Shown piece by piece: positions 13,537 to 49,744 of a stretch of DNA of 64,000 bases. How positions within the stretch are numbered: position 1 is the stretch's first letter; each line of letters begins with the position of its first letter. The stretch spans positions 1 to 64,000 of the forward strand of contig PAJO01000056.1 in assembly GCA_002706085.1 (NCBI GenBank), read 5' to 3'. The notes below the pieces were generated by a model. That model was not told where the DNA came from, did not search any database, and was given only the letters and a program-made list of their open reading frames with translations. The stretch is from Alcanivoracaceae bacterium. GTDB taxonomy: Bacteria > Pseudomonadota > Gammaproteobacteria > Pseudomonadales > Alcanivoracaceae. Made by a program: the position numbers and the translations under genes.

Positions 13537-13609
13537 TCCTGGCTCCCACCCCGGTGGGAGCTATGCCCTTATGACCCACAAGGAAGGTGCTTCGCAGATT
13601 GGTGAATCG

Positions 13610-13643
13610 GGTTGGAGGTCGGACGTCAGAAGTCTGACCAACC
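13610..13643. repeat. GTCGGAC-type intergenic hairpin
   Basis: An imperfect inverted repeat (arms GGTTGG..GTCGGAC and GTCTGACCAACC) downstream of pycB. Similar GTCGGACGTC / GTCTGA motifs occur at 10071-10138 and 33613-33676, so it belongs to a dispersed repeat family. Confidence 0.5.
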
Positions 13644-13678
13644 TGTTTTCCCGCTAATCCGCGATGAACCAAAAAAAG

Positions 13679-20289: not shown

Positions 20290-20370
20290 ATGGAGCAGTC
20301 GTTCTGGGAAAACAAATGGGCCCGCAACGCGGTTGAGGCACTGTTTGCACAGCATGACATGGCCCCCTGA
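20290..20370 (+). pseudogene. Short remnant resembling a methyltransferase N-terminus
   Basis: A 26-codon frame beginning MEQSFWENKWARN. The FW-x-x-KW-x-x-N pattern recalls the start of thiopurine S-methyltransferases, but the frame stops quickly and no body of the enzyme follows. The MITE-like repeat lies 115 bp downstream. It may be debris of a gene; chance similarity is quite possible. Confidence 0.25.
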
Positions 20371-20485
20371 CCACCCGTTGACCAGGTGGCACCTGTTACC
20401 AAGCGTAAACATTAACCGTGTATCAAGGCGATATCTTTGGTTCATCGCAGATTTGAGGGAATGCCTCGCAGCACGCCCCCATGCT

Positions 20486-20654
20486 GTAGGAGCGTCGCTC
20501 GCGGCGCGATTCCAGCGTTTTACGCCATCCTGTGAGAAGTCCTTGCAGAGACCACTACGTTAAAAGAATGGGTTTCCTCAGCGATCTCCGTGACCTCTGT
20601 GGTGAACATGTTTTTGATCCTGGTCTGGAATCGCGCCGCGAGCGACGCTCCTAC
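20486..20654. mobile_element. MITE-like element, copy 1 (169 bp)
   Basis: Perfect 30-bp terminal inverted repeats (20486-20515 and 20625-20654; outer sequence GTAGGAGCGTCGCTCGCGGC) enclose a 109-bp core. The right half of the core, read on the minus strand, closely matches the core of the copy at 49557 (shared ACCAGGATCAAAAAC, TCACGGAGA and CTGAGGAAA blocks). No transposase is encoded and no clear target-site duplication is visible. Confidence 0.75.
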
Positions 20655-20866
20655 GGATAGGGGGGAGGATCAAATCGGGCTTTTGCAAATCCGCGATGCC
20701 GATGAAGTCTCCGCTCACTACCGTGACCACGATCTGGAGATACGCTGCCTTTCCTCAAAGAATATCCTTGAACATGAACCCGGATTTCGGGAGAGAGGAC
20801 TCACTGCACTGGAAGAAAGTTGCTGGCAGTTGATGCCGGCAGGCTCATTGCGCTGAGCAGCCACGA
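20655..20866. other. Intergenic stretch with possible coding debris
   Basis: Between the MITE-like element and the SDR gene. A frame in the plus direction could encode a tail such as LEIRCLSSKN...GLTALEESCW, but it has no start of its own outside the repeat. It might be the 3' end of a decayed gene. Confidence 0.25.
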
Positions 20867-21638: not shown

Positions 21639-22115
21639 ATGAGCATTTCCGTCGGCGACACCCTCCCCAATGTCACTATCAAGACCAATGGCGAAAACGG
21701 CCCTGAAGATTTTTCCACTGGCGATTTTTTCAAGGGACGTAAAGTGGTGCTGTTTGCCGTACCCGGGGCATTTACTCCCGGCTGCTCCAACACTCACATG
21801 CCGGGCTTTGTGGTGAATGCCGATTCCATTCTGGAAAAAGTCGATGCCATCGGCTGTATGGCGGTAAACGATGCCTTTGTGATGGATGCCTGGCAAAAAG
21901 ACCAGAACGCCGAACACATCACCATGCTGGCAGACGGCAACGTGGAGTTCACCAAGGCCCTCGGCCTGGAGCTGGATGTTTCTGCCGCCGGCCTCGGCAC
22001 TCGCTGCAAGCGCTTTGCGCTCATCGCCAATGATGGCGTTGTGGAATATCTTGGCGTGGATGACAAGGGTGTGGACAAAAGCAGCGCAGAGTCAGTGCTG
22101 GCCCAACTGGGCTAA
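21639..22115 (+). CDS. Peroxiredoxin, Prx5-like
   Basis: A 158-residue thiol peroxidase that reduces hydrogen peroxide or alkyl hydroperoxides. The peroxidatic Cys lies in GAFTPGCSNTHMPGF (TPxxC pattern with Gly-Cys as in the Prx5 group). Two more Cys are present (IGCMAVND, TRCKRF), one of which could act as resolving residue. VNDAFVMDAW and GLGTRCKRFALI are typical. The ATG at 21639 with AAGGAG upstream is chosen over an earlier in-frame ATG at 21591. The thiol donor (glutaredoxin or thioredoxin) is not encoded nearby. Confidence 0.92.
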   Translation: MSISVGDTLPNVTIKTNGENGPEDFSTGDFFKGRKVVLFAVPGAFTPGCSNTHMPGFVVNADSILEKVDAIGCMAVNDAFVMDAWQKDQNAEHITMLADGNVEFTKALGLELDVSAAGLGTRCKRFALIANDGVVEYLGVDDKGVDKSSAESVLAQLG

Positions 22116-22401
22116 TCACTCACAGAGCCCGGTGAAAATACTGAGGGAGCAATCGTTCGACCGCGAAGGTTCCAGGCCAACCCTTGATTCGCGGTGGAAC
22201 CACCGCTCCCACAGTTTCCGTTAGCGCTGTGGGTGCCCCTGTGGCGCCCAGCAACGCTTTCCTGTAAGGAATCCGACACCGGCAGACGCCCTCAGCAAGC
22301 AGATCCACAAAGCAGGAGCGTAGGTTATTCGCTCCGCTCACCCTTCGGGCCGCCCTGCGGGCGCTCCTTCGCTGCGCTCGGTGGCGACGCGATAAACCCT
22401 T
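22116..22401. repeat. Intergenic region with REP-like fragments
   Basis: No gene seen. Around 22160-22215 an inverted GGTGG / CCACC arrangement precedes CCGCTCCCAC, like repetitive extragenic palindromes. From about 22315 to 22395 a GGAGCGTAGGTTATTCGCT block and CTGCGCTCGGTGGCGACGCG match, in inverse orientation, the right end of the MITE-like element at 49557-49744. Confidence 0.5.
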
Positions 22402-24054
22402 TTAATTCCCCGATATTCGATTCCGCTCAACGAACCGGGTGGAGTCCGTGCCAAAAGACCCGCCATAACTTTCCCTCACCATGATCCGGTCACCGATGCC
22501 ATGCAAACGATACTGATCAAGCATGGTCAACCCGTAATTAGGCAAGTGAGTGGTATCCACTTCTTTGTTGGTCTTCTCGCTGGCCGTCACCTTGTGGTCA
22601 ACGTAATTCTGTTCGTAGGCCAATTCGAGCAAGGGAGCGTTTTCATCCACATCGGCCACCGCATGGCCATAAATGGAGCGATCTTCGTCGTCATGAAAAT
22701 CCGGCTGGTAATAGGGCCAGATATCTTCTTCAAGAAAGTTTTCACGGAACCAGTGAGGCGAGAACGAACTTTGCCCGGTGGCAAGAAAAGCACCGCGAAT
22801 ACGTGAGGAAACCTGGCGCACGGGCGACGGGTCACCGGGATTCGCCAACTCCTTTACGGCAGCATGAATCCCTGCCCCTGCTCCCAACGACGACCCGGTG
22901 ATAAAAATATCGTCAGGATTGATATTGAACACGGCTGCGTGATAACGGAAAAACTGGATCGCGTGACTCATGTCATCCCGCGACACCGGGTAACCCTGCT
23001 CATCCAGATCCTTTGCCGGGTGACGAAAATCCAGCGCCGCGACCGTCACCCCCCCTGCACCGCCACCCCCTATTTCCAGATAGGACTCAAGCGTCCCTTT
23101 CTTGGGCCCCAACAGGGTTTCCTTGTTGTTGTTGGCCGAATGGGCGTAGAGGATCAGGGTGTTGGGTTCTCCCGCATGCACCCGGCCATCAGACGTCGGA
23201 TAATACACATCAATACGCAACCCGTTTGGCTCGCTATCCGGCCCCACCAGAGGCAACCAGCTAACCGTGCTGTCGCCATAATAAATATTGCTGTAGTAGC
23301 CACATACCGGGTTGCAGCTACCGCTGGCGTGGAAATGCAGATCCATCACATCGCTGTTAAAGGGGGGCGGTACGTCTGCGCCCGCAGGCGGTGTTGATGC
23401 CACAATAGTCCTGGCACCACAGGCCTGCCCACCCTCATCCGCATTCACACAAATTTCCACATCGATTCTGTCGCCGTTTTCCAGCCCCCAGGGGTACGTG
23501 ACCGAAAACTCGTCACCATCATGGTCACCTTTACTGCGGGTCGCCAACAGGTTTCCGTCCACATAGTAGTAATGGCTTGAACTGGTCGGCTTGAGCACAT
23601 CGTAAAAAATATCGAAAGGCTGACCCGGTGGCACATGATCCTTGATGCCAACGGTATGGATTTCCACTGCCTGCTTGAGCTCAAGAACCTGGCCTGCACG
23701 CACACGAATAGCATCACAGACCAGCTCATTGCCCTCTTTCAGACAGATCCGGATATCCTTGCTCACACCCGCTGAGAAACCGCCTGGATAGGTCACAGAG
23801 AAACGCCCGGCCTCACTGCCCATTGCGCTGTTAGAGCGTGTCAGCTTGAGGCTGTTATCCACGTAGTAGTAGTGGTCCGAATTACTGTCAGCAGTGACAT
23901 CGTATTCCACAACAAAGGGCTGGTTGGGCGTGACCACATTACCGTGGTCCACAGCGAGAATACGAACCTGAAACGGCGCAGCCACCAATGTTAGCGGTAG
24001 CCATACCCACACAAGACAGATTGCATATCGCATTACCCGTAGAGAGCCTTTCAT
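22402..24054 (-). CDS. Secreted alpha/beta-hydrolase (esterase) with duplicated N-terminal domain
   Basis: A 550-residue exported protein: signal peptide over residues 1-26, then two related units of about 95 residues (about 27-120 and 128-220). Each contains HYYYVD, TRS, F-SVTYP-G and a Cys pair (ICLKEG..CDAI; ICVNAD..CGAR). The C-terminal half is an alpha/beta-hydrolase with nucleophile Ser in ITGSSLGAGAG and LILYAHSANNN before it. It also has extra Cys pairs (GSCNPVCGYY). This looks like an extracellular or surface esterase whose duplicated domains may bind substrate or the cell surface. GGAGG precedes the ATG. Substrate unknown; the duplicated domain was not recognised. Confidence 0.7.
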   Translation of the reverse strand: MKGSLRVMRYAICLVWVWLPLTLVAAPFQVRILAVDHGNVVTPNQPFVVEYDVTADSNSDHYYYVDNSLKLTRSNSAMGSEAGRFSVTYPGGFSAGVSKDIRICLKEGNELVCDAIRVRAGQVLELKQAVEIHTVGIKDHVPPGQPFDIFYDVLKPTSSSHYYYVDGNLLATRSKGDHDGDEFSVTYPWGLENGDRIDVEICVNADEGGQACGARTIVASTPPAGADVPPPFNSDVMDLHFHASGSCNPVCGYYSNIYYGDSTVSWLPLVGPDSEPNGLRIDVYYPTSDGRVHAGEPNTLILYAHSANNNKETLLGPKKGTLESYLEIGGGGAGGVTVAALDFRHPAKDLDEQGYPVSRDDMSHAIQFFRYHAAVFNINPDDIFITGSSLGAGAGIHAAVKELANPGDPSPVRQVSSRIRGAFLATGQSSFSPHWFRENFLEEDIWPYYQPDFHDDEDRSIYGHAVADVDENAPLLELAYEQNYVDHKVTASEKTNKEVDTTHLPNYGLTMLDQYRLHGIGDRIMVRESYGGSFGTDSTRFVERNRISGN

Positions 24055-34840: not shown

Positions 34841-34882
34841 GGTTGACCCTTTCAAGATCGCTGATAGTTAACCCTTCTCGCC

Positions 34883-34945
34883 GTAGGAGCGTCGCTGGCG
34901 GCGCGATTTCTGCCTCGCTTATCGCGCCGCCAGCGACGCTCCTAC
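34883..34945. repeat. Solo 25-bp hairpin of the MITE-like family
   Basis: A perfect 25-bp inverted repeat (34883-34907 / 34921-34945) with a 13-base spacer; the arm, GTAGGAGCGTCGCTGGCGGC and on, matches the terminal repeat of the elements at 20486 and 49557. The core of those elements is absent. It lies between mmsA and the acyl-CoA dehydrogenase gene and would form a strong hairpin in their common transcript. Confidence 0.85.
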
Positions 34946-35011
34946 AGTGATGTATCTCCACCATCGAACGCAGAATTCGGAGATGGGCATTCGCCCATTT
35001 CCGCCCTACGA

Positions 35012-36508
35012 TCATTTCAAATGAATACTCATATTCGGGCCGCTTGCCGGGATGTCATCGTCGAACCAGCGGCTGGTGACGGTCTTGGTTTCCGTATAAA
35101 ACCGCACCGCCTGTTTGCCGTAAGCGTGCTGGTCGCCGTAGAACGATCCTTTCCAGCCAGTGAAGCTGAAGAACGGCAGTGGCACCGGGATCGGTACGTT
35201 GATCCCCACCTGCCCCACTTCCACTTCGTGCTGGTATTTACGGGCGGCAGCACCGCTGGCGGTAAAGATGGAAGTGCCATTGCCGTAGGGGCTGTTATTC
35301 ACCAACGCCAATGCTTCTTCCAGGGAATCCACGGTGACACAGCACAACACCGGGCCGAAAATTTCTTCCCGGTAAATGGCCATGTCCGGGGTCACATCGG
35401 TGAACAGGGTCGGCCCGACCCAGTTGCCATCGGGCAGGCCTTCCACGGTGCAATCGGAGCCATCCAGCAAACAGGTTGCGCCCTCCTCCTTGCCCTGCTT
35501 GATCAGTGTCAGCACCCGTTGTTTGGCCTGGGGGCTGATCTGTGGTCCGTAGGCCGCTTGCGGATCGTTCCAGGCACCGGGACGGATGTTGGCGAACTCG
35601 TTTTTCAGTTCATCCACCCAGGCTTTTGAGTCGCCGACGAATACGGCCACGCTGATGGCCATGCAACGCTGCCCCGCCGCCCCACAGGACGCCCCCACCA
35701 GGCTGTTGATCACCTGGTTCTTGTTGGCATCAGGCATGATCACCATGTGGTTCTTGGCACCGGCGAAACACTGGGCCCGTTTCATGTGATCCGTGGCGGT
35801 GCGGTAAACGTGCTGCCCCACCGGCACCGAACCGACGAAGGACACGGCCTTGATATCCGGATGGGTGAGCAGGGTGTCCACCTGCTCCTTACCACCATGT
35901 ACCAGCTGCAGCACTCCCGGGGGCGCGCCCGCTTGAAGAAACAGTTCCACCAACCGGTTGGGGGTCATGGGGTCCTGCTCGGAGGGCTTGAGGACAAAGG
36001 TATTCCCCGCAGCAATGGCCAGCGGGAACATCCACAGCGGGATCATGGCGGGAAAGTTGAAGGGGGTAATGCCTGCGCATACGCCCAGCGGCTGGGTCCA
36101 GGAATGCGTGTCGATGCTGCGCGCCACGTTTTCCACCGTTTCCCCCATCATCAACGAGGCGATGTTAGCGGCCTGTTCGGCGACTTCGATACCGCGCCAG
36201 ACATCCCCCTTGGCATCCTCGAAGGTCTTGCCGGTTTCCTGACTAAGGATCTCGGCAATCTCTTCCTGATGCTCTTTCAGCAACGCCTGATAACGCAGCA
36301 TCAACCGTGCCCGCTCAGATACCGGCACTTCCTTCCAGCTTTCAAACGCCGTCTTGGCAGCGGCGATGGCTTGCTCCATTTCGTCTGCCGTGGCAGCAGG
36401 GGCCTCACAAAGAATTGCCTGGGTAGCCGGGTTGGTCACCGGGATCCACTCACGGGTCTGACTGGCAACGAACTCGCCGTTGATCAACAGGGGCAGGCGA
36501 TGGGGCAT
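35012..36508 (-). CDS. mmsA: Methylmalonate-semialdehyde dehydrogenase (CoA-acylating)
   Basis: A 498-residue CoA-dependent aldehyde dehydrogenase that turns methylmalonate semialdehyde into propionyl-CoA. The catalytic Cys is in [13 protein letters not shown]. Where other ALDHs have the base Glu, this enzyme has [14 protein letters not shown], typical of Mms[18 protein letters not shown] and the C-terminal [20 protein letters not shown] are diagnostic. GGAGAGTTGTT precedes the ATG. Divergent from an AraC regulator, as in Pseudomonas mmsR-mmsAB. Confidence 0.95.
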
Positions 36509-46883: not shown

Positions 46884-47759
46884 TCAGGGACCAGCTTGCA
46901 GGCAACGCTGAAAACCGTCAGCCAGGGTGTTGAGCCAGGGGAGGTAGTTGAGCGACGGCTGGTCTCGCCCCAGGGGATCCAGCGCCACCGCCTTACACTC
47001 CGGGCAGAGCCTGTGCAGCATGGCGGCACGGGCTTCCGGCTCCACGATCATGCAGTGCAGCTTACGGTCACGGATCTCCTGGGCCAGCGCCACAAAGCGG
47101 CGGCTGCCAGGCCCCGCATCCAGCTGCTGACTCACCTGCAACGGCTCGGCCAGCCCCACTACCGCGCTGAAATACCCCCAAGGCTGGTGATAACTCAGCC
47201 AGTCCGTAGACGCATAGGGCCCCAGTTGCTCACGGAGCTGCCCCAACGTCAGCTCAGCCTGCTGCCGCCATAGCCCAGGCTGCCCCTGCTGCAATCCTTC
47301 GGGCATGACGCTGGCCACCGCTTCCGCCAGCAACTGCATGTTCTTTATCGACAACCACAGATGCGGGTCCAGATTGGCATTGTGATGCGCGCCATTCTCA
47401 TCGTGGTGGTCATGATCATCATGGCCATGCCCATGATCAGCGTGCCCACCTTCCCGACGCTCCACGTTCGCCAGCTCCAGTAGCGCCACCGACACCCTGT
47501 CGCGACGCGCCACCAGCGGCGCCTCCACACCGGCACCCACCCAGACCAGCAAATCCGCGTCACGCACTTGCATGACCTGGCGCGGAGACAACGCCAGCTG
47601 ATGCGGGTTCTGGTTGGCCTGCAAGAGAGTGACCACCTCAACCTCTGGGCCATACAGACTGCGCAGCAGCTTGGCCAGCGGCTCCACACTGGCCACGATG
47701 GTCTGGCTCCAGGCGGGGGAGCAAGTCAGGAGCAGGATGGTCAGCCAGAAATGGCGCAT
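46884..47759 (-). CDS. znuA: Zinc ABC transporter substrate-binding protein
   Basis: A 291-residue periplasmic protein. After the signal peptide (LTILLLTCSPAWS) come the cluster-9 features VASVEPLAKLL and NPHQLALSPRQ (first zinc His), a His-rich loop with HADHGHGHDDHDHHDENGAH, LDPHLWLS (second His), and LSYHQPWGYF. It binds zinc and hands it to ZnuB. The ATG at 47759 has GAGGAA upstream. It is divergent from znuCB across a 248-bp region that holds a repeat element. No obvious Zur box was found. Confidence 0.94.
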   Translation of the reverse strand: MRHFWLTILLLTCSPAWSQTIVASVEPLAKLLRSLYGPEVEVVTLLQANQNPHQLALSPRQVMQVRDADLLVWVGAGVEAPLVARRDRVSVALLELANVERREGGHADHGHGHDDHDHHDENGAHHNANLDPHLWLSIKNMQLLAEAVASVMPEGLQQGQPGLWRQQAELTLGQLREQLGPYASTDWLSYHQPWGYFSAVVGLAEPLQVSQQLDAGPGSRRFVALAQEIRDRKLHCMIVEPEARAAMLHRLCPECKAVALDPLGRDQPSLNYLPWLNTLADGFQRCLQAGP

Positions 47760-47793
47760 GAAGTTCCTCAAATTCAAATGATGTTGGCAGGTG

Positions 47794-47921
47794 CAAGCTA
47801 CAAGGCGCGGGCACCATTCGCAGTCATCCGTCTGGGCCTTCTACCGCGCCACACCCCTCTTGAGCCGAAACGCGGCGACAACAAGGCCACTCGCACAGAC
47901 TTTCCCGCGCCTTGTAGCTTG
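47794..47921. repeat. AAGCTACAA-type terminal inverted repeat element, copy 1
   Basis: CAAGCTACAAGGCGCGGG at 47794-47811 is matched perfectly, in inverse, at 47904-47921. The 92-bp core shares CTACCGCGCC, CGAAACGCGG and AAGGCC with the copy at 53584. It lies in the znuA/znuC divergent region. No coding capacity. Confidence 0.7.
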
Positions 47922-48007
47922 AAGCTTGCAGCTTGTCGCTCGCCCTTCAGTGCAGACGAAAGGCGGGCAGTATATCATTGCGCCTTTGTTCTTCGGGCAG
48001 GTTTCTC

Positions 48008-48784: not shown

Positions 48785-49556
48785 ACTGCTGCTGCCACCT
48801 CTGCTCGCCGGGCTGGCCGTGGCGCTGGTCTCCGGGCCTATGGGCGCCTTTGTGGTGTGGCGACGCATGGCGTTTTTTGGCGACACTCTTGCCCACGGTG
48901 CCTTGCTGGGGGCCGCCCTGGGGCTGGCGCTGGATATCAGCCTCTATGTGGCCGTGGTGGCCATGTGCCTGGGGCTGGCGGCCGCGCTGACGGCACTGCA
49001 GCACCAGCGCCAGCTGGCCAGCGACACCCTGCTTGGTATCGTGGCCCATACCACCCTGGCACTGGGGGTAATTGCCATCAGCCTGCAAACCGGCATCCAG
49101 GTAGACCTGTTTGCCTACCTGTTCGGTGATCTGTTAGCCGTAGGCTGGCAGGAAGTGATCGGACTGTGGGCCGGTGCACTGGTCATTCTGGCCATGATGC
49201 TGTGGCAATGGCGAGCCCTGTTGAGCATCACCGTGAACGAGGAGCTGGCCCAGGTTGAAGGGGTAGCGGTACAACGCACCCGTCTGTTGCTGATGCTGCT
49301 ACTGGCACTGCTGATTGCCGGCGCCATTCGTACCGTGGGGGTGCTGTTGATTACCTCGCTGTTGGTCATCCCCGCCGCCAGCGCCCGGCGTCTGACGCAC
49401 ACGCCTGCCCAAATGGCGATCGCCGCCAGCGTCCTCGGCACCCTGTCTGTGCTCGCCGGGCTGACGGTGAGCTGGTTTGCCAATACGCCCGTGGGGCCGT
49501 CAATCGTGGTCGCCGCCAGTGGCTTGTTTATGCTGACGCTGTTGCGCAAAACCTAG
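48777..49556 (+). CDS. znuB: Zinc ABC transporter permease
   Basis: A 259-residue cluster-9 permease with about eight membrane segments, starting [41 protein letters not shown] and the [20 protein letters not shown] segment are characteristic. Its ATG lies inside the end of znuC, so the two are translationally coupled. The gene ends just before the MITE-like element at 49557, which may supply or disturb termination. Confidence 0.94.
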
Positions 49557-49744
49557 TAGGAGCGTCGCTGGCGGCGCGATTCCAGACCAGGATCAAAAAC
49601 GTTTCCACCGCAGAGATCACGGAGACCACTGAGGAAAGCCATTGTTTTGACTCAGTGAACGCTATGTCCTCTGTGGTAAATCTGCCTTTAACAACGCAGG
49701 CGATCGCGCCGCCACCGAGCGTAGCGAATAACCGACGCTCCTGC
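49557..49744. mobile_element. MITE-like element, copy 2
   Basis: Left terminal repeat 49557-49586 matches the 30-bp terminal repeat of copy 1 with one change. The following about 65 bp match copy 1 in inverse orientation (ACCAGGATCAAAAAC, TCACGGAGA, CTGAGGAAA, CCATT). The right end (49700-49744; GATCGCGCCGCCACC and GACGCTCCTGCGG) is diverged and holds a CGAGCGTAGCGAATAA block also seen at 22315-22395. No transposase. It fills the gap between znuB and the MATE gene. Confidence 0.7.

Follow-up and report, generated by a model that had tools for sequence, protein, structure and literature searches.

The locus and its neighborhood

The window analyzed here is a stretch of 64,000 nucleotides on contig C56 of the 67-contig, 3.78-Mb genome of an Alcanivoracaceae bacterium (G000). 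Between a gene for an MpaB-type oxygenase on one side and a gene for a short-chain dehydrogenase (SDR) on the other lies an element of 169 bp, which could encode at most 56 residues and is overlapped by no Rfam match. The features of this locus and the related elements elsewhere in the window are listed below, with the evidence for each.

20290..20841, plus strand: relic of a TPMT-type methyltransferase gene (tblastn with the homologue from genome G015)
20486..20654, no strand: REP-A REPIN of the long class, 169 bp (inverted ends, pairing, fold, 96%-identical twin)
20486..20509, plus strand: left REP-A with its GTAG head outside (exact 24-mer)
20510..20630, no strand: spacer between the REPs (alignment of copies)
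20576..20603, minus strand: arm of the CACAGAG-type core, with a recognizable right side and a left half that differs in this copy (sequence and family consensus)
20610..20630, minus strand: sub-terminal segment of type II (ATCAAAAGC / GACCAGG words), common to other long copies (alignment and consensus)
20631..20654, minus strand: right REP-A, inverted (exact 24-mer)
22312..22393, plus strand: one REP-A-like unit whose long loop holds nested hairpins (read from the sequence; outside the list of 24-mers)
34883..34945, no strand: 63-bp short doublet of REP-A that lacks the CACAGAG core (within the intergenic slot 34842-35013)
49556..49744, no strand: second long REP-A REPIN, in opposite orientation (right REP at about 49704-49744, with an enlarged loop)

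The outermost 30 bp of the element (bases 1-30 against 140-169) form inverted repeats of 100% identity, so that the sequence-only reading, which had proposed perfect 30-bp ends at 20486-20654, was right about both the ends and the coordinates. With mismatches allowed, the arms extend to 40 nt at 90%. Folded as a single strand, the element has an energy of -49.8 kcal/mol, with z = -9.19 relative to 200 dinucleotide shuffles. It is made of two inverted REPs with their GTAG heads facing outward, as in a REPIN, and the unit is bounded by GTAG and CTAC. A lone REP-A folds no better than its shuffles (z 0.17), which counts against the REPIN reading.

A gene relic around the element

A homologue of a TPMT-type methyltransferase stands uninterrupted beside the SDR gene, over 214-225 aligned residues, in 12 of 15 relatives' loci (a TPMT match is absent in L110, L111, and L115), and another is present in G015, the nearest genome used, whose aligned pieces share 76-99% identity with the window. 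In the window, a weak start-like piece lies at 20290-20334 (15 residues, E 0.006), a middle match at 20412-20441 (10 residues, E 0.13), and a piece at about 20692-20841 that corresponds to the last 50 residues or so of the protein. The long tblastn alignment (E 1.5e-11) crosses the element with a stop and is meaningful at the end of the relic only. The element is positioned between these pieces, so this copy sits within a decayed gene that is uninterrupted and without the element in relatives. It may have broken the TPMT gene or may have arrived later. In the same 15 relatives (the three loci with no TPMT match included), the spacer between TPMT and SDR is occupied by a REP doublet from another family in six cases, by an unclassified inverted repeat in one, and by nothing recognized in eight; a scan of these loci found no REP-A.

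Copies of REP-A in the genome

The 24-bp unit that starts each end of the element, here called REP-A, has 115 matches at up to three mismatches in the 3.78-Mb genome, 59 forward and 56 reverse, while the reversed-pattern control has 0 in either direction. At up to six mismatches, 116 matches in loci fetched from G000 form 40 convergent pairs, and a further 36 units stand singly, among them some members of other REP families. Eleven pairs measure 62-65 bp, with about 16 bp between the REPs; seven measure 138-156 bp, five of them with a ACGAGTTTCGAAA-type palindrome; 21 measure 158-172 bp, most of these having a CACAGAG palindrome; and a last pair, of 292 bp, was omitted from the alignment. Across the pairs, the REPs are near-constant and the spacers variable. 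The REPs of doublets carry 0.79 mismatches and single REPs 0.83 (80 and 29 units), so no difference was seen; better conservation in doublets is an expectation taken from SBW25 rather than a defining trait of REPINs.

The element at 20486 has a twin at C61:7738-7906 that is 96.4% identical over all 169 bp, while the 60-bp flanks are 38% and 22% identical. Within the window, the copy that the sequence-only reading placed at 49557, with about 65 bp of shared core, matches bases 68-169 in the opposite orientation at 87%. Two further positions given there as fragments can now be specified: the one at 34883 is the 63-bp REP doublet, and the one at 22315 is the REP-A-like unit at about 22312-22393. 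The enlarged loops of the REP-A variants at 22312-22393 and 49704-49744 contain further nested inverted repeats, GTTATTCGCT...CGGTG.

The copies at 34883 and 49556 have orthologous counterparts in G015 (98% and 97% identity); the copy at 20486 is not at an orthologous position. Mobility was said to be unlikely if all copies were at orthologous positions with no empty sites; of these three copies, two are so placed. Empty sites in relatives, a proposed check, were not found with exact nucleotide junctions for any REP-A element, which counts against the REPIN reading. Length differences between G000 and G015 at 13583-13647, 22108-22418, and 47717-47945 are likewise without exact junctions, and partial loss of an element is seen when L201 is compared with L188 and L127 with L125. 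A CAAGCTACAAGG...CCTTGTAGCTTGAAGCTTG palindrome at 47795-47940 of the window has no counterpart at that position in G015.

A transposase gene linked to REP-A

The PF01797 profile has seven matches in the genome. The gene of interest here lies on another contig.

G000:C34:112092-112535: RAYT, 147 aa (NF047646, PF01797, PDB 4er8)

Its product scores 130.7 bits against NF047646, the NCBIfam model for 'REP-associated tyrosine transposase' (cut-off 80, E 3.8e-38), 35 bits against PF01797 (cut-off 23), and matches the TnpArep of PDB 4er8 with E 2.2e-7. A REP-A doublet adjoins the 3' end of the gene, a 167-bp REP-A REPIN lies upstream of the 5' end, and the TAG in the GTAG of a REP serves as the stop codon. 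A transposase with matching ends, which the sequence-only reading had suggested seeking, is therefore present with REP-A on both sides. In the translation, we take HIH in PDHIHW to be the HUH motif and Y in ARYLVANP to be the catalytic tyrosine. Four other RAYT-like genes of the genome (L031, L034, L036, and L037) have other REPs nearby. A second RAYT, L070:1711-2154 on contig C9, adjoins REPs of the GTAGGAGCCATGCTCGCATGGCGA type.

RAYT-like matches number 74 in 37 genomes, and 31 loci were tested. All nine loci with at least 73% identity (from eight genomes, with G000's own locus included and two from one genome) have REP-A with at most one mismatch within 500 bp. Among the other 22, REP-A at up to two mismatches occurs in none, two have related REPs at three mismatches, and in 19 a different sequence with a GT[AG]GGAG head lies nearby. 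REP-A at up to two mismatches is found in 17 of the 37 genomes, all of one genus, and in 0 of the 20 outside it. In a collection of named genomes, exact matches cover 85 stretches, of which 84 have Alcanivorax in the title and the remaining one has 'Pseudomonadales bacterium.' The host is probably an Alcanivorax.

The eight genomes with a close RAYT have 106, 69, 103, 15, 70, 132, 30, and 38 matches of REP-A, and the nine genomes of the genus without one have 37, 44, 4, 5, 5, 34, 10, 60, and 1. The count is thus higher with a close RAYT (15-132) than without (1-60) in 62 of 72 pairings. The absence of a close RAYT from nine genomes of the genus that hold REP-A, including A. jadensis (44) and G015 (60), counts against the REPIN reading. 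At the RAYT locus, its identity being judged from flanking sequence, A. jadensis has a REP-A doublet alone and G015 has a single REP, as if these genomes had lost RAYT or had never acquired it.

The sequence-only reading had called the element MITE-like. This term fits loosely only: no target-site duplication of 2, 3, 4, 5, or 8 bp was found in any of 116 elements drawn from G000 and related genomes, and since, in addition, the ends are REPs, REPIN is the better name. A classical MITE would derive from a DDE transposon by internal deletion and be mobilized by a DDE transposase that is encoded at an unlinked site and recognizes the 30-bp inverted ends. Perfect inverted ends, dispersed copies, and a broken host gene would all be expected of it; however, there is the lack of target duplication, the REP-A ends flank a RAYT gene, and the constant part of the element stops at the 24-bp REP with an interior that varies by class. 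We consider such an origin very improbable, the transposase search having covered the Y1 family alone.

The element at 20486 is, with high probability, a REPIN, a mobile non-autonomous repeat whose cognate transposase is the RAYT at G000:C34:112092-112535. Most likely, a transposase that acts on single strands, with its gene elsewhere in the genome, copied the 169 bp. In the proposed mechanism, the single strand of the REPIN would form a long hairpin whose foot is GTAG, and RAYT, as an HUH/tyrosine transposase, would recognize the GTAG-tagged REP hairpin. The cut may fall at the pyrimidine pair just outside the REP, where the flank consensus of 115 elements, CCTTNC[CT] outside GTAG on both sides, has C and then C or T; the unit would then be copied to a new site without target duplication. 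We infer both this cutting chemistry and present-day activity. The copy at 20486 would have entered, or stayed in, a TPMT gene that has since decayed.

A hairpin target was considered and rejected. Complementarity is only slightly higher between the flanks of the same element than between flanks of different elements, with 3.83 against 3.61 matches over 8 positions (sd 0.11). The complementary run is 1.84 for flanks of the same element and 1.38 for flanks of different elements (sd 0.13), a mean raised by two perfect 20-bp cases among 115. The CCTTNC[CT] consensus, and not a palindromic target, therefore accounts for most of the appearance of the flanks.

The core of the long copies

The core of the long-class REPIN is a separate palindromic repeat, with ACCACAGAGNNCACAGAG arms, that also stands alone. 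In A. jadensis (G003), 100 core matches form 57 clusters, of which 12 are within 150 bp of a REP-A. Sixty-eight free arms give the consensus AAA-N4-TTTTtACCACAGAGGgCACAGAGttCACtGAGgAAAAcc, and their flanks are flat; in 78 arms near REP-A the similarity continues into the REP. In a sample of the phylum, an exact core match occurs in 32 of 398 genomes, in 18 of the 338 good-quality genomes, and in 10 of 213 genera, some single matches resembling coding sequence (for example, L254 and L266). One genome, which belongs to family f52 and not to this class, contains 104. The resemblance of the core words to scattered intergenic repeats, which the sequence-only reading had pointed out, is borne out by free-standing copies in A. 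jadensis and in this distant family. Literature on the words CACAGAGG, ACCACAGAG, and CTCTGTGG included no paper on a bacterial repeat among the titles listed (for one word, the best 15 of 62).

Several observations concern the palindrome itself. Copies in A. jadensis (L309-L328) and other genomes (L265-L293) consist of three motifs spaced by about 9 bp, a center that is mostly unique, and the motifs again inverted. In the distant proteobacterial family, some of them have the variant CACGAAG. Nesting also occurs in reverse, with a doublet of another REP inside a CACAGAG palindrome at L243 and, less clearly, at L108.

If the CACAGAG palindrome were the true mobile unit and the REP-A ends were its passengers, then the 45 of 57 clusters in A. 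jadensis without REP-A within 150 bp, and the copies in a distant family, would be readily explained. Short REP-A doublets without the core would not, nor would the covariation of RAYT with the REP. CACAGAG is present in 51 of 100 REP-A doublets in the fetched loci and in 0 of 31 doublets of six other REP families; REP-A was the main criterion for choosing the loci, and the informative part is the contrast alone. Mobilization of the palindrome by a Y1 transposase was tried and rejected, its arms being absent from the flanks that were fetched for 18 Y1-transposase loci of four genomes. Taken as the mobile unit, the palindrome has hardly any probability.

Under the REPIN reading, the palindrome may have been captured once by an ancestral long REPIN and then multiplied with it, a single uptake being suggested by the sub-terminal segments that the long copies share. 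In 61 copies of 150-180 bp, the two sub-terminal arms are of types I and II in 27, unclassified and II in 18, neither in nine, both II in five, and both I in two. No compensatory pairing was found between the arms of the spacer, which counts against the REPIN reading; scores within elements are lower than scores between elements, since the two sub-terminal arms of a long copy often differ. When the 27 copies with types I and II were oriented, 982 of 5000 shuffles reached the observed pairing score.

Palindromes in intergenic slots

Five intergenic places of A. jadensis were compared with 11 other genomes wherever both flanks aligned. These slots were picked where A. jadensis has an element or where the alignment broke, which means that the entry for G003 is not an independent observation, and relatives share some occupants by descent. 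The slot at 34842-35013 is occupied in 12 of 12 genomes, all with an inverted-repeat z of at least 5, by REP-A in seven, another REP doublet in one, and CACAGAG in four. In the second slot (12 genomes), CACAGAG is found in three and a GACGTC-type palindrome in nine, most of the nine being too short for the z test. The third slot (12 genomes) has the CACAGAG motif in nine, including G002 with a AATTGATAA middle, while G005 has AATTGATAA alone by motif and G011 and G014 have neither. The fourth, aligned in five genomes, has CACAGAG in three and another REP in two. In the fifth (five genomes), GTGCACTGAG occurs in two, a REP in one, and AGTTTAAAG in one, with an 8-bp remainder in G014; G006 (1256 bp, with genes) was dropped by the length limit. 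Besides 34842-35013, orthologous places with palindromes of different families in different Alcanivorax species include the following.

L348:7737-7952
L347:1935-2135
L347:3440-3630

In spacers of 100-600 bp, an inverted repeat with z of at least 5 was found in 8 of 32 in the window, in 1 of 6 and 1 of 7 in two stretches of G015, and in 0 of 64 coding controls; this survey used crude gene calls and did not flag the 20486 spacer. A further palindrome, AATTGATAATTGAGAATGGATAATTGATA, lies at L348:4086-4245 and has many more copies in G010 and G005.

Constant occupation of a slot by palindromes of any family, as at 34842-35013, would suit a static structural repeat, that is, a terminator, an mRNA 3'-end or a gyrase-type hairpin held by selection and spread by gene conversion. 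The orthology of two window copies in G015 is in keeping with this, as are the positions of 217 element ends relative to mechanically called ORFs: an ORF of at least 150 codons ends between -300 and +40 in 170, and in 48 of these 170 the stop is within 20 bp before the REP. Where ORFs end within the first 40 bp, eight of nine use the TAG of GTAG, but the other two frames of the REP have no stop, so this use is no evidence of selection. Against a static repeat are the 96%-identical pair with exact ends and unrelated flanks, the copy inside the TPMT relic, and the covariation of RAYT with REP, all of which call for a dispersal mechanism. A static repeat is a very improbable account of the element; function and mobility do not exclude each other.

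A tentative and rather doubtful reading is that Alcanivorax has intergenic slots, located behind or between genes, that keep a strong hairpin in most species while its family changes among REP-A REPINs, other REPs, and palindromes of the CACAGAG, GACGTC, AATTGATAA, AGTTTAAAG, and GTGCACTGAG types. The host would gain from the hairpin and not from any one sequence, the replicating families would compete for the place, and at least CACAGAG would have a separate mobilizer. Unrelated palindromes nest in one another's middle, as they do in the long REP-A class. The spacer between TPMT and SDR has no occupant in about half of the relatives, which weighs against the idea. Slot exchange is a lead and no proof; if true, slots with swapped palindromes would be a natural experiment on whether REPs serve the host by structure rather than sequence.

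Relation to known systems

This analysis places a REPIN-RAYT system in Alcanivorax. A literature search for Alcanivorax with REP and RAYT found none, and papers found for Alcanivorax with 'repetitive extragenic palindromic' are, by title, on other subjects. The CACAGAG palindrome recurs in a distant proteobacterial family, and the search found no mobilizer for it.

The REPINs described for P. fluorescens SBW25 (PMC3116915) likewise consist of two inverted REPs with a diverse spacer, form a long hairpin, have a cognate RAYT, and occur in many copies. In Alcanivorax, however, the spacer reaches up to about 120 bp and the long class includes an independent palindromic repeat; the REPs of doublets are better conserved in SBW25, and no such difference was seen here. 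The TnpAREP proteins of E. coli, S. maltophilia, and Marinomonas (PMC8266576) are also HUH tyrosine transposases associated with a GTAG head, and are described as cutting beside the REP between C and T, or in Marinomonas also at CA. REP-A differs from their REPs in sequence and has a T-G pair in its predicted stem.

The GTAG-tagged REPs and REPtrons of PMC3733652, the main text of which does not mention Alcanivorax, share with REP-A the GTAG head, HH dimers, repeat-specific RAYT loci, and several spacer types per family. In A. variabilis, GTAG dimers are reported there to be inserted within other palindromes, whereas in Alcanivorax the nesting is reversed and the other palindrome lies inside the REP dimer. 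The REPIN-RAYT system is thus of a known kind, and its new part is the composite core: the long-class members of this REPIN family carry in their spacer a second, independently dispersed palindrome.
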